In this document: positions 11,061 through 57,570 of the stretch, one piece after another | Layout: the number at the start of each line of letters is the position of its first letter | How positions within the stretch are numbered: the first letter of the stretch is position 1 | NCBI RefSeq assembly: GCF_902498785.1 | Contig: NZ_LR701493.1 | Span: 729,459-793,458, forward strand | Length of the DNA stretch: 64,000 nt | DNA from: Sphingomonas sp. EC-HK361 | GTDB taxonomy: Bacteria > Pseudomonadota > Alphaproteobacteria > Sphingomonadales > Sphingomonadaceae | Reading direction: 5' to 3' | Program-made: the position numbers and the translations under genes | Notes under the pieces: generated by a model | The model's database searches: none | Told to the model about the DNA's origin: nothing | Seen by the model: only the letters and a program-made list of their open reading frames with translations

Positions 11061-11680
11061 GCCGCGACCGCTTGACCATAAGCGGGCGCGGCGCCCGGTG
11101 TCTCAAGCGGTGCGATCGCGCCATCCGGATTGGCGGCAAGGCACGTGCGGGCGATCAGCGCGCCGACGCGCTCGGCATCGGGGATCGCGCGCAGCATCGG
11201 CTGCGGCACGGCGAGGTGCCACGGTCGCGCGTGCGGCCAGAGCCCCGCATAGCCGATCCGCTGCGCGCCCGCGACGTGGAGCGGCAAGTCGCCACTGCCG
11301 TCGCTGCGCACCGTCGCATCGACCGCGCCGATGACACCGAGCGGCAGGTTGATGCACTTGGGCAGCGCGATGCCGATGCGGAATACGATCCGCCGATTGG
11401 TGAGCGTGTAGATCGTCGCGCGTGCCGATGCCCAGGCGAGGACGTGGAGCAAAGCGACGCCGACAAGCCCGACACCGACCGTCGCTGCGGCGCCGAGCGT
11501 CCCGCCGCTGGCCAGCGCGGCCAGCGCGAGCACCGCGAAATACCCGGCGGTCAGCCGCGTATGAAATGCCGTCCGGGCCAGCACGCGCCAGTCGGGCGAT
11601 CCCTGCCATAGGATGCGTTCGTCCTTGGGGAGCAATCCCGGCAGGCCGGGGATCGGCTCGTTGTCATATTCGGTTATCAC
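11057..11680 (-). CDS. puhB: Photosynthetic complex assembly protein PuhB
   Basis: 207 residues: a short cytoplasmic N terminus (GLPGLLPKDERILWQGSPDW), about two or three membrane segments (40-85), and a PH-like domain (TIYTLTNRRIVFRIGIALPK onwards). PuhB dimers act in reaction-centre assembly in Rhodobacter. Its stop overlaps the puhC start by 4 bases, and its own start overlaps the puhA stop. Confidence 0.93.
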   Translation of the reverse strand: MITEYDNEPIPGLPGLLPKDERILWQGSPDWRVLARTAFHTRLTAGYFAVLALAALASGGTLGAAATVGVGLVGVALLHVLAWASARATIYTLTNRRIVFRIGIALPKCINLPLGVIGAVDATVRSDGSGDLPLHVAGAQRIGYAGLWPHARPWHLAVPQPMLRAIPDAERVGALIARTCLAANPDGAIAPLETPGAAPAYGQAVAA

Positions 11681-13884: not shown

Positions 13885-19089
<5,205 letters not shown>

Positions 19090-19100
<11 letters not shown>

Positions 19101-20727
19101 AATGCGCCTTCGCGTCGTAGAGTGTGTCGAGGGTGATCGTCGCGAGGCCGTGTTCGGCGGCGAATTTCTCGGTGTTGCGACGCGCCTTGCCGCGCACGAA
19201 GAAGGGGATTTTCAGGAGTTCACGTTCGGCGTCGGAGGACCACAAATCCTCCCCGAGCTTGTCTCGGGGAGGGGGACCGCCGGCAATGCCGGTGGTGGAG
19301 GGGCTGGCGATGTCCTCGGCGCTGCGCGCCGCCCCTCCACCATCGCTGCGCGACGGTCCCCCTCCCCGAGCAAGCTCGGAGAGGACTTTAGCATGCCCCA
19401 GATGGCTCGCCCCCGCGTCGTCCGAAAACTCGAAATCGTCGCGGAACATCGTCAGCAGATGCTCCTCCAGCCCCATAACAAGCGGATGGACCCAGGTGTC
19501 GAACAGCACATTCGCGCCCTCGAACCCCATCTGGGGCGAGTAGCGCGCCGGGAAATCCTGGACGTGGACCGGCGCGGAAATCACCGCGCACGGCACGCCG
19601 AGCCGCTTGGCGATGTGGCGCTCCATCTGCGTGCCCAGCACCAGCTCGGGCTGGAGCGCGGCGATCGCGGCCTCGACCTCCAGATAGTCGTCGGTGATCA
19701 GCGGCTCGACATCGTAGAGTTTCGCCGCCTCTCGCACGTCGCGGGCGAACTCGCGGTTGTAGCAGCCGAGGCCGACGACCTGGAAACCAAGCTCGTCGCG
19801 GGCGACGCGAGCGGCGGCGACGGCGTGGGTCGCGTCGCCGAAAATGAAGACGCGCTTGCCGGTGAGATAGGTCGAATCGACCGACCGGCTCCACCAGGGA
19901 AGGTTCGAGGTGTCGAGCGCGGGTGCGGGGTCGACCCCGGCCAGCGCGGCGACTTCGGCAAGGAACTCGCGCGTGGCGGCGTGGCCGATCGGCACGGTGC
20001 GGACCGTCTTCTGGCCGAACTGGCGCTCGAGCCAGCGGCACGTCGTGTCGGCGATCTCGGGATAGAGGCAGATGTTGAAATCGGCGTCCGGCAACCGGGC
20101 GATGTCGGCAGGCGAGGCGCCGAGCGGGGCGACGACGTTGATATCGATGCCGAGCGTGCCGAGCAGCCGCGTCACCTCGATCACGTCATCCCGGTGGCGA
20201 AAGCCGAGTGCGGTCGGGCCGAGGATATTGGCGGTAGGTTTGTGTCCCCGCGAAGGCGGGAGCCCAGACTGGGTCCCCGCCTTCGCGGGGACACAAATAG
20301 CGCGCACTAGCTGATAAAACGTCTCGCTCGCGCCCCAATTCTCCTTGCGCTGATAGCTCGGCAGTTCGAGCGCGACGACCGGGCAGGGGAGGCGCATCGC
20401 CTCAGCGAGGCCGGCGGGATCGTCCTGGATCAACTCGGCGGTGCACGATGCGCCGACCAGCATCGCCTGCGGCTGAAAGCGCTCATACGCGTCGCGCGCG
20501 GCACGCTGGAACAGTTCGGCCGTGTCCTTACCAAGATCGCGCGCCTGGAAGGTGGTGTAGGTGACCGGCGGGCGCTTGCCGCGGCGCTCGATCATCGTGA
20601 AGAGCAGGTCGGCATAGGTATCGCCTTGCGGCGCATGGAGAACGTAATGCACGCCCTCCATCGCGGTAGCGATCCGCATCGCGCCGACATGGGGTGGCCC
20701 CTCATAGGTCCAGACGGTCAGCTGCAT
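19090..20727 (-). CDS. bchB: Dark-operative protochlorophyllide reductase subunit B with two in-frame palindromic insertions
   Basis: Catalytic subunit with BchN; reduces ring D of protochlorophyllide without light. 545 residues from the ATG at 20727. Asp36 in [13 protein letters not shown] matches the unusual aspartate ligand of the N/B iron-sulphur cluster. The C-terminal domain has [20 protein letters not shown]. Two stretches look foreign to the family: residues about 144-163 ([18 protein letters not shown]) and about 447-494 ([13 protein letters not shown] to [20 protein letters not shown]). Both are encoded by palindromic DNA elements (20239-20297 and 19245-19388). The flanking sequence is normal BchB and the frame is intact. 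Confidence 0.93.
19245..19388. repeat. 144-base nested palindrome inside bchB
   Basis: Outer arms of about 34 bases (from 19245 and ending near 19388) are inverted copies with a few differences; both contain CGAGCTTG and GGGGAGGGGGACCG. An inner pair, GGTGGTGGAGGGGC against GCCCCTCCACCATC, continues the symmetry. Each outer arm can also fold on itself (CTCCCCGAGCTTG with CTCGGGGAG). The whole unit is translated as about 48 extra residues of BchB. Confidence 0.8.
20239..20297. repeat. 59-base perfect-armed palindrome inside bchB
   Basis: 22-base arms at 20239-20260 and 20276-20297 are exact inverted complements, beginning TTTGTGTCCCCGCGAAGG. Inside them CCCAG and CTGGG continue the symmetry around a single base. 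It has the same CCCGCCTTCGCGGG core type as the bchM element. It is translated as about 20 residues between the QLVRAI and [14 protein letters not shown] segments of BchB. Confidence 0.88.
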
Positions 20728-20748
20728 GTGACCGTCCCTTCCCCACAC

Positions 20749-20828
20749 CCGTTCGGGCTGAGCTTGTCGAAGCCCTGTTCTTTCTTCCGAAGAGAAGGAC
20801 GGCCCTTCGACAAGCTCAGGGCAAACGG
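20749..20828. repeat. REP doublet in the bchN-bchB gap
   Basis: Inverted arms CCGTTCGGGCTGAGCTTGTC (from 20749) and GACAAGCTCAGGGCAAACGG (ending 20828), sharing the core GAGCTTGTCGAAG/CTTCGACAAGCTC. It fills most of the 115-base gap between the bchN stop and the bchB start. All other junctions of this operon overlap or are 12 bases or shorter. Confidence 0.85.
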
Positions 20829-20842
20829 GGAGAGGACTGCGC

Positions 20843-37496: not shown

Positions 37497-39698
37497 ATGG
37501 GTACGCGCTACATCTCGCCCACCGGCGCCGGCGACAAATCGGGATCGAGCATCGAGAATGCAGCGCCGATCGGCGCGCTCGATACGCAGATCGTCAAGGC
37601 GGGCGCTGGCGGGCAGGTGCTGTTGATCGCCGATGCTGGCATCTATCAGACGAGCGGGATCATCCCCGTCGCGCACGGCGGCGCGGACGGGCTTCCCGTC
37701 ACGATTCGCGGGATCGATCACTTCGGCAATGCGATGGCGGCGCAGTTCAACGGCACGCGGCCGGTCGACTGGCATGCGGGCGACGCCGCCGGCAACGAGC
37801 TGTTCAAGCTCGGCAGCGGTACCAACCATCTGGTCTTTCAGGATATCGACATCAGCAATGTTGGGACCGCGTTTCGCGCAAGTGCCGACATCGCCGACAT
37901 CACGATCGATCAGGTCGATGTCCATAATGCGCGCCGCTTCTTCGAGAATCTGGCGAGCGGCACCAGCGCGACGATCTCCGGCCTCACCATCCGCGATGTG
38001 ACGGTGACCGGCTTCTCGCGCGAGGCGATTCGCCTGCAATACGATACCCACGACGTGGTGATCGAGAATGTGCGCGCCGACATGGCGGGGCAGGTGGGGG
38101 ACGATCTGCCGGAGGGCATCCACCTCGACGGCACGGTGCACGGCGTCGTGATCCGCAACACCGTCATGGCCAATGTGCAGAGCGCAGGGAGCGGCAGCAC
38201 CTATCTGAACGGCGACGGCTTCGCGACCGAGCGCGGGGTTTACGGCGTATTGTTCGAAAATACCGTCGCGAGCGGCAACAGCGACGGTGGCTATGATCTG
38301 AAATCCAGCGACACGGTGCTGATCGGCGCGGTCGCATCGGAGAACGCGCGGAACTACCGGTTCTGGGGCGAGATCACGATGAGCGATTCGATTGGCCTCA
38401 ACCCCGTCTGGCGGGGCGGGTCGTCCGAGCAGAACCAGCTTTGGATCGCCGCCGGGGCGAAGGTGGCGATCAGCGACAGCGCCTTTGCGGATGCCGGGTC
38501 GCGGACGAAGGTGATCTCGTCGGAGGGCGCGTTGGTTCTGGATGGGGTGCAGATCGTCCATGCCGCGGACTCGATCCTGCTGACGTTGAGCACGCTGCTG
38601 TCGCTCGTCGGGCTGCCGACGCTTGCCGAAAGCAGTGTCGCGGCGGTGGGCAGCGCGTCTGCAGGGTGGTCGGCGAACGATCCGGCGATCTCGGCGTGGG
38701 TATCGTCGGTCCTTCGCGGGGCCAGCGACGACCATTTCTTCGGAACGGCGGCGGACGATCACTTCTTCGTCGATTCCGCGCGCGACACGATTGCCGAGGC
38801 TGCGCCGGGCGGGATCGACCATGCGGCGACGACGCTCGCGCGCTACACGCTTGGTGCGAACCTGGAGAACCTGACGCATATCGGTCCCGGCGATTTTACC
38901 GGCACTGGCAACGCGCTTGCCAACATCATCACCGGCGGCATCGGCCACGACACACTGATCGGACTCGATGGCAACGACACGCTCAATGGCGGGGCGGGCA
39001 ACGATTCGCTTCAGGGCGGCAACGGCAACGACACGCTGAACGGCGGCGACGGCCATGACATGCTGCTCGGCGGATGGCAGGCCGATACGCTGGATGGCGG
39101 CGCGGGCGACGATCGGCTCATCGGTGACGTCAATTGGCTGAGCACGACCGGTGCGCGCGACATGCTGCGCGGGGGCGACGGCAACGATATCCTGTTCGGC
39201 GACGCAGAGACGATGGGTGGCACCGCGCATGGCGGAGTCGACAACCTGTCGGGCGGGGCCGGCAACGACACGCTCTACGGTGATGCGATGACGATGACCG
39301 GTAACGCGGTCGGCGGGCGGGATACGCTTTACGGCAATGATGGCGATGACCGGCTCTACGGCGACGGCGCGATCATGGCGGCGGGCGTCACGGGGGGCGA
39401 CGACCGGATCGACGGTGGCGCGGGCAACGACATGATTGTCGGCGGCGGCGGTCACGACACGCTGATCGGGGGCACGGGCGCGGATCATTTCGTCTTCGCG
39501 CCCGGATCGGGGATCGACGACATCCTCGATTTCTCGTCGGCGGAGGGGGACAAGATCGATCTCTCCGCCTTCGGGGCCGCAGCGGCGGCCTATACGACGA
39601 CGATGACCAGCGACGGACTCGTGGTGCATGTCGGCGACAGCAGCATCGTGCTGCACGATGTCTTCGCGCTGCATTCCTATGATCTGATCCTGATGTAG
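37497..39698 (+). CDS. Right-handed beta-helix protein with RTX calcium-binding repeats
   Basis: 733 residues. The N-terminal half (about 20-330) is a parallel beta-helix (ISPTGAGDKSGSSIENA; repeated IxNxxVxxx turns). Residues about 480-665 carry GGxGxDxLxGG calcium-binding nonapeptides, and the C terminus (VVHVGDSSIVLHDV) resembles RTX export ends. There is no N-terminal signal, as expected for type I secretion. This layout resembles secreted polysaccharide lyases and C5-epimerases, so action on the exopolysaccharide is plausible but unproven. The beta-helix core is related to the protein at 54354. The ATG at 37497 was chosen because it begins the fold; GTG 37488 is close by. Confidence 0.82.
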   Translation: MGTRYISPTGAGDKSGSSIENAAPIGALDTQIVKAGAGGQVLLIADAGIYQTSGIIPVAHGGADGLPVTIRGIDHFGNAMAAQFNGTRPVDWHAGDAAGNELFKLGSGTNHLVFQDIDISNVGTAFRASADIADITIDQVDVHNARRFFENLASGTSATISGLTIRDVTVTGFSREAIRLQYDTHDVVIENVRADMAGQVGDDLPEGIHLDGTVHGVVIRNTVMANVQSAGSGSTYLNGDGFATERGVYGVLFENTVASGNSDGGYDLKSSDTVLIGAVASENARNYRFWGEITMSDSIGLNPVWRGGSSEQNQLWIAAGAKVAISDSAFADAGSRTKVISSEGALVLDGVQIVHAADSILLTLSTLLSLVGLPTLAESSVAAVGSASAGWSANDPAISAWVSSVLRGASDDHFFGTAADDHFFVDSARDTIAEAAPGGIDHAATTLARYTLGANLENLTHIGPGDFTGTGNALANIITGGIGHDTLIGLDGNDTLNGGAGNDSLQGGNGNDTLNGGDGHDMLLGGWQADTLDGGAGDDRLIGDVNWLSTTGARDMLRGGDGNDILFGDAETMGGTAHGGVDNLSGGAGNDTLYGDAMTMTGNAVGGRDTLYGNDGDDRLYGDGAIMAAGVTGGDDRIDGGAGNDMIVGGGGHDTLIGGTGADHFVFAPGSGIDDILDFSSAEGDKIDLSAFGAAAAAYTTTMTSDGLVVHVGDSSIVLHDVFALHSYDLILM
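38940..39495 (+). repeat. RTX nonapeptide-coding tandem repeats
   Basis: Degenerate repeats coding for GGxGxDxL units (GNDTLNGG, GNDSLQGG, GDDRLIGD and similar). The DNA copies are diverged, so the repetition is at protein level. Two longer spacers carry GDAETMGGTAHGG-like and GDAMTMTGNAVGG-like units, suggesting an older duplication of a larger block. Confidence 0.8.
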
Positions 39699-57494: not shown

Positions 57495-57570
57495 GGGCGC
57501 TTAGCTCAGTTGGTAGAGCATCTCGTTTACACCGAGAGGGTCGGCGGTTCGAGCCCGTCAGCGCCCACCA
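57495..57570 (+). tRNA. tRNA-Val (anticodon UAC)
   Basis: 76 bases. Acceptor stem GGGCGCT/AGCGCCC with encoded CCA, D-arm TTAGCTCAGTTGGTAGAGC, anticodon stem TCTCG/CGAGA with loop TTTACAC (anticodon TAC), T-loop GGTTCGAGCCC. All arms fold normally. It lies between the priming-transferase gene and the converging cyclase gene. Confidence 0.97.

Follow-up and report, generated by a model that had tools for sequence, protein, structure and literature searches.

REPINs, whose usual mobilising agent is a Y1 transposase (RAYT), pair two palindromic modules in inverted orientation, with a variable stretch between them, and are dispersed in the genomes that carry them. Palindromes read in frame are known from Rickettsia, where the Rickettsia palindromic elements (RPEs) are repeats of about 150 bp that lie in frame in unrelated genes and add an extra peptide, which is said to be conserved; nearly half of the RPEs of R. 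conorii are coding (PMC10969869). Intragenic GTAG and CGTC REPs were described in 2013; in E. litoralis and S. alaskensis their targets include truB and genes for tRNA synthetases, and different REPs were reported at about one site of the Xanthomonas recB gene (PMC3733652). The CGTC REPs are alphaproteobacterial palindromes, often arranged as dimers, for which the same description gives no dedicated transposase as known (PMC3733652). The principle that intragenic palindromes can be read in frame is already known, and below we compare a palindrome in the bchB gene of a Sphingomonas with these systems.

In the 64,000-nucleotide stretch of DNA that we analysed (the window), a nested palindrome lies at about 19244-19389 inside bchB, which encodes light-independent protochlorophyllide reductase subunit B (19090..20727, minus strand, 545 aa, intact frame). 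We consider it very probable that this is a non-autonomous REPIN-like repeat of Sphingomonas relatives, named F1 here, which inserted into the variable interdomain linker of BchB. The outer arms of the palindrome (19263-19282/19351-19370) are 20 nt long and 95% complementary, the inner arms (19290-19304/19331-19345) are 15 nt long and 93% complementary, and a small hairpin (19248-19257/19263-19272) stands at its left end. The initial annotation had described a nested palindrome of 144 bases at 19245..19388; the palindrome is real, and its ends had been placed 1-2 bases off. The assignment of BchB residues 447-494 to the palindrome agrees with 19389-19246 read in frame. Normal BchB sequence had also been said to resume on both sides, and the frame is indeed open throughout, with the Pfam domain Oxidored_nitro (residues 12-416) before the element and PCP_red (496-540) following it. 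The two known domains that flank the element are thus intact, and the element stands, as proposed, just before the C-terminal domain.

The predicted fold of the element was very stable. Its minus-strand RNA (147 nt) folded at -124 kcal/mol (z -13.7), compared to -67.6 ± 4.1 kcal/mol for shuffled versions, and none of 200 dinucleotide shuffles gave an RNA fold as low. The z score with DNA parameters was -12.0. Along bchB the window of 180 nt that covers the linker was the extreme among 25 such windows (z -11.4). An Rfam search of the 64,000 nucleotides at the gathering threshold gave nothing at the element, and its sole match was a tRNA at 57495-57567.

The bchB element is a full-length member of the dispersed family F1. 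The plan of the family is two inverted modules, each composed of a hairpin A, GGGACC, a covarying hairpin B, and GGTGGAGGGG. Hairpin A reads TCCTCCCC-loop-GGGGAGG in the aligned copies, while hairpin B varies in both length and sequence. Module 1 of the bchB element, with hairpin A, GGGACC, hairpin B and GGTGGAGGGG in this order, occupies 19247..19303 on the plus strand (69.7 bits, E 1.6e-14), and the inverted module 2 occupies 19332..19385 on the minus strand (57.9 bits, E 1.5e-11); both scores refer to R1, a covariance model of the F1 module that had these two modules among its building sequences. The middle between the modules (19304..19331) is variable in an alignment of 16 copies. Modules were 43-62 nt long, and paired copies (n = 43) measured 127-203 bp.

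We examined covariation in 33 modules, which were aligned by sequence and whose structure was named from the same sequences, a procedure that favours the structure. In these modules 97.0% of 537 helix cells were paired, and two-sided changes were seen in 50 cells versus 13.2 in shuffles. Pairing fell to 42-71% in slid registers. Two of the five measures (double-change pairs and further pair types) were not above the shuffles. All 33 aligned modules start with TCC[T/C]CC, a start that was itself used in cutting the modules out. The copies are bounded by terminal inverted repeats (TCCTCC...GGAGGA), often with A residues before them, and the flanks showed no consensus apart from these few A residues at the ends. 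Across the listed copies, 2 to 6 of the 6 frames were open; avoidance of stop codons was rejected as an explanation, since this is roughly what G+C-rich sequence gives by our estimate.

To place F1 among genomes, we searched nine relative genomes with the element, scoring at most the best 40 candidates, and found matches in seven, the full-length ones with 72-78% identity. The search for genomic copies that had been proposed as a check thus gave matches in the genomes of relatives. With R1, 48 of 80 relatives of G003, the genome to which locus L005 belongs, gave matches, as did 158 of 298 genomes in the G003 family and 7 of 289 genomes drawn from its class, where the best 74, 19 and 20 candidates per genome were scored, respectively; three of the seven class matches (G003, G019, and G100) are also in the family sample. 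F1 is therefore largely confined to the family of G003, which is taken to be Sphingomonadaceae. A scan of 81 bchB-centred sources, 1.6 Mb in all, gave strong R1 matches only in two linkers, that of the window and that of L005, and L020 gave one weak match (E 0.0025).

F1 shares features with several known systems. With two inverted REP-like modules and a variable middle it resembles REPIN/RAYT systems. However, there is no GTAG tag in the F1 modules or in the 20-base flank consensus, and a Y1 transposase was unmatched in most of the genomes with a high F1 copy number. F1 resembles the CGTC REPs in its intragenic copies and in having no dedicated transposase matched in the Y1 search, but its modules are without the CGTC tag, the 8-9 bp stem and the CCA tail, and form instead a two-hairpin unit of 43-62 nt with a variable, covarying second hairpin. 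F1 is also similar to a MITE, being short, apparently non-autonomous and bounded by terminal inverted repeats, but differs from one in showing no excess of target-site duplications.

Of the 43 F1 pairs, 4 had target-site duplications of at least 4 bases (9%, against 7.7% when shuffled), and because these are not in excess, insertion has left no direct trace of itself. Taken with the hairpins and the REPIN-like plan, the missing excess suggests that F1 moves as folded single-stranded DNA, and some host or transposase protein would help it to do so. In the Y1 family search, Y1_Tnp was unmatched in 8 of 9 relative genomes. In the larger set, Y1_Tnp was matched in 12 of the 80 relatives and was present in 8 of the 32 without F1. 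It was unmatched in 22 of the 24 relatives with at least 20 F1 modules; the genomes are drafts, in which single absences are no proof. We rejected a RAYT as the general mobiliser of F1, as a Y1 transposase was found in only 2 of these 24 high-copy relatives. We also looked for an autonomous parent between distant inverted modules in two multi-module regions (L195 and L196). Inspected by eye, the frames there look like host genes, one of them a glyS that itself carries an insert, and neither a transposase nor a parent insertion sequence was recognised.

The linker that holds the element (19222..19401, minus strand) is 60 aa long, anchored between ...GASH and the 10-residue anchor that follows, and 48 of its residues come from the element. 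BchB homologues at 80 loci carry, between ...SH and EL.KIPFFVR, a largely unrelated linker of variable length (25-84 residues, a range that leaves out the frame-broken L017 with 65 nt), and in many species it is low-complexity. The nearest BchB row, L166 (89% identity over 470 tree columns), has a linker of 35 aa in which the element is absent, so the element entered the natural linker or replaced part of it. Linkers differ between species, and a clean empty site is absent at the DNA level. The initial annotation had read the segment as an insertion and proposed an alignment of BchB from relatives as a check. That reading holds in so far as the segment is absent from near relatives, L166 included, and belongs to a dispersed family, but the homologues do not close up without a gap, since they have an unrelated, variable linker at this place.

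Modelling of BchB had been proposed as well, and we obtained an AlphaFold model of the protein with the segment, from an alignment of 38 sequences that drew on 37 of the best 80 homologue loci. The pLDDT was 32-43 over the segment and 81-95 over residues 491-540, so that a segment of very low confidence stands beside a confident C-terminal domain. However, pLDDT was below 50 over residues 385-405 and 410-491, conserved residues included. The low values are compatible with a disordered element, no proof of it, and constitute weak evidence because the low stretch begins well before the element.

We then compared the linkers of 125 BchB rows, including that of the window. These were collected from the best 80 of 584 loci, the best 30 of 78 genomes with a match, and 20 hand-picked genomes of the same 78; L225 was dropped for having no C-terminal match and 5 identical rows were merged. 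F1 or another palindrome family matched in 23 of the 125 linkers, a count that is partly circular because the references came from the very linkers compared (F2 from L173, F3 from L023, F4 from L172, F5 from L059 and L171) or from copies of F1. All 23 family-bearing linkers were among the 87 rows taken as Sphingomonadales (42 so named, 44 from the family of G003, and the window), and this contrast with the 38 others is partly built in because the families were defined in Sphingomonadales rows. Of these 38, 31 belong to other orders by name and 7 bear no order in the title; at least one of the 7, L070 (identical to L181), is a sphingomonad.

F1 was present in 6 of the 87 Sphingomonadales linkers, or 5 without the remnant in L168. 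Besides the window, in-frame copies were found in the BchB linkers of L005, L179, L185, and L194, the last three of which, like the L168 remnant, came from the 30 loci added from the family. The copy in L005 (Sphingomonas sp. TREG-RG-20F-R18-01) is in frame, belongs to another subtype, sits at another position in the linker than that of the window, and is closest to copies in L087 (same genome as L005) and L086. F2 (RHAELVSAS...PEQVRGD) was found in 7 of the 125 linkers, F3 (SSEVET...) in 4, with L004 a partial match, and the F4/F5 group (PLPLAGG and similar peptides) in 6. In the genomes searched, F2, F3, and F4 are dispersed as well: F2 gave 18, 10, 10, and 24 matches in four of four genomes, F3 gave 45, 21, and 4 in three of three, and F4 gave 84, 9, 80, 25, and 77 in five of five, with both strands of the palindromes counted, so that copies are fewer than matches. 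By eye, F2 resembles the CGTC REPs, with a CGTC tag, an 8-bp stem starting AT, a 4-base loop and a CCA tail.

A measure that is independent of the families gave a fold z score of -3 or lower for the linkers of 14 of the 87 Sphingomonadales versus 1 of the 38 others. This bears on the idea that the symmetry arose by chance in a low-complexity, G+C-rich linker or is an assembly artefact. The linker is indeed of low complexity in many species, but with 0 of 200 shuffles folding as well, family copies in many assemblies, and the contrast in z scores, we regard the probability of this explanation as negligible. The z score stays above -3 in several linkers that bear a family, L001 among them. Three of the 14 linkers at -3 or lower, those of L003, L008, and L188, have no match to F1-F5, and may hold further palindromes or reflect chance.

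We mapped the families on a BchB tree of 89 rows with the linker columns excluded, built by a quick method that left 30 of 86 forks open. F1 needed 5 changes on this tree, at least 4 of them forced by starred branches, and F2, F3, and F4/F5 needed 3, 4, and 5 changes, respectively; such changes may be losses or linker exchange and not gains. L005, with F1, and L017, with an F4 hairpin, are sister rows (support 100) that have different families in the linker. Judged from these sequences, several unrelated repeats appear to have entered the BchB linker separately, and it looks like a recurrent landing site for palindromes. In L017 (Sphingomonas sp. PAMC 26605) the linker, at 11312-11376, has a short F4 hairpin together with a frame shift, which is either a real truncation of BchB or a misread base in a C run of the assembly.

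Such recurrence could also mean that the linker is an active target preferred by the mobiliser, for example as G+C-rich, hairpin-prone DNA, beyond being a place where insertions are tolerated. Four palindrome groups (F1, F2, F3, and F4/F5) in one linker, the different families in the sister rows L005 and L017, and the finding that the only strong R1 matches of L005 in 21.7 kb are those in the linker all point in this direction. However, photosynthesis genes offer few other tolerated places, F1 is also found in linkers or loops of other proteins, and the flank consensus is limited to a few A residues at the ends; we therefore consider a preferred target rather unlikely. Tolerance most simply explains survival in linkers. 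Since its G+C-rich sequence has few stop codons, F1 would be readable on a given strand whatever the frame. Insertions in the linker would survive because an extra peptide rich in Gly, Pro, Ser, and Arg is tolerated there, and insertions elsewhere in bchB would be removed by selection, with no special function of the F1 peptide required. As the element is in frame within a flexible linker that several unrelated repeats appear to have entered, it probably becomes part of BchB rather than breaking it.

We next evaluated F1 in other genes. Eleven of 76 F1 copies were in frame in genes, in a test that demanded a frame open for 80 codons and coding-type codon periodicity, both on either side, and that misses inserts close to gene ends. 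The 76 copies were pairs or single modules, taken as best-scoring matches and not at random, after 2 near a locus end had been dropped. Pfam supported the identity of the gene for 9 of the 11. The host genes were trmD (L083), truB (L084 and L097), methylmalonyl-CoA mutase (L087), glyS (L095, L129, L196, and L204, of which L196 and L204 were identified by eye through their similarity to L129), ligD (L098), and 2-oxoacid dehydrogenase acyltransferase (L125 and L198). The glyS gene was a repeated target, at about one place (after LARWLVEEG) in L129, L196, and L204, and elsewhere in L095.

Residues 493 and 544 of the methylmalonyl-CoA mutase query align to residues 532 and 535 of 8gju_J, and residues 157 and 202 of the TruB query align to 155 and 163 of 1sgv_A. 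The residues that flank the insert thus align close together, and in both proteins F1 occupies a position where the solved structures have only a short stretch. In the remaining host proteins the inserts fall between Pfam domains, which suggests that these places are linkers. Three different entry frames were seen (ILP, SSP, and NPP).

These copies allow a comparison with RPEs as they have been described. Like them, F1 is an in-frame palindromic insert in unrelated genes, and truB is a target common to both (PMC3733652). However, F1 occurs in another lineage, the nearest bchB relatives of the window marking its host as a sphingomonad, and is G+C-rich, it uses three entry frames in place of a conserved peptide, and 11 of 76 copies are coding by our strict test versus nearly half in R. 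conorii (PMC10969869). The initial annotation had called such insertions rare outside Rickettsia, which overstated the case: REPs within genes, some of them from sphingomonads, had been published in 2013, and F1 is found in several genes.

The same counts bear on whether the palindrome is kept for a regulatory or processing role of its RNA hairpin in bchB, be it in ribosome pausing between domains, as an RNase site, or in segmental mRNA stability. The very stable predicted RNA fold and the covariation of the hairpins across the family would fit such a role. Against it, only 6 of 87 Sphingomonadales linkers have F1, with other families or none in the rest, and 65 of the 76 copies were not called coding by the strict test. 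We consider an RNA role very unlikely, and because of these 65 copies the structure of F1 is probably conserved for reasons outside bchB.

Substitution ratios in the linkers with F1 and F2 hint at protein-level constraint. Among the seven linkers with F2, five were used (L177 and L234 were excluded), and pooled pN/pS over their 10 pairs was about 0.28. For F1, the pair L179/L185 showed 6 changes at 44 synonymous sites versus 5 at 121 nonsynonymous sites. The insertions may thus have been domesticated, the peptide being under selection at the protein level and contributing to linker function. However, the counts are small, non-independent and without a non-coding orthologous control, the signal could be mimicked by stop avoidance, codon bias or gene conversion from other copies, and most species lack the element. 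Domestication is a doubtful explanation, although a possible one.

Our literature search returned, among the reports listed, none on palindromes in BchB, and an earlier report is possible; neither the architecture of F1 nor its occurrence in BchB nor the repeated occupation of this linker was found in it, and the word 'protochlorophyllide' is absent from the main text of PMC3733652. We tentatively propose, as a plausible reading that falls slightly short of probable, that F1 is an undescribed class of two-hairpin, covarying mobile repeats with a non-Y1 mobiliser, and that the BchB linker is a landing platform which F1 entered independently about four times and which at least three unrelated palindrome groups entered, so that Sphingomonadales would have rebuilt the linker of an essential enzyme from selfish DNA, which sometimes then came under protein-level selection. 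The supply of protein sequence by selfish palindromes, which has been discussed mainly for Rickettsia, would extend to free-living bacteria. Different families appear to have used one linker repeatedly, which provides replicated natural experiments on how much an enzyme linker tolerates. With covarying hairpins, and with Y1 transposases unmatched in most genomes of high copy number, the movement of the repeat could be tested in culturable Sphingomonas.

A second palindrome was found in frame in bchB at 20239..20297, with 29-nt arms that are 93% complementary (z -6.9 for the 180-nt window that covers it). It encodes about 19 residues, which are extra relative to the homologues in the alignment, and may be a REP dimer of what we presume to be the CGTC/dRS3 type. 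Related extra residues stand at this site in L005 and perhaps also in L017. A palindrome at 14554-14631, just past the 3' end of the bchL frame, resembles this second palindrome (GTGTTCCCGCGAAGGCGGGAACCCAGA), and another at 20748-20829, with 35-nt arms and of another kind, lies just upstream of the bchB start. At 38933-39469 of the window, seven repeats of 30 nt encode a GGxGxDxL-like pattern, which we take to be similar to RTX-type calcium-binding repeats.
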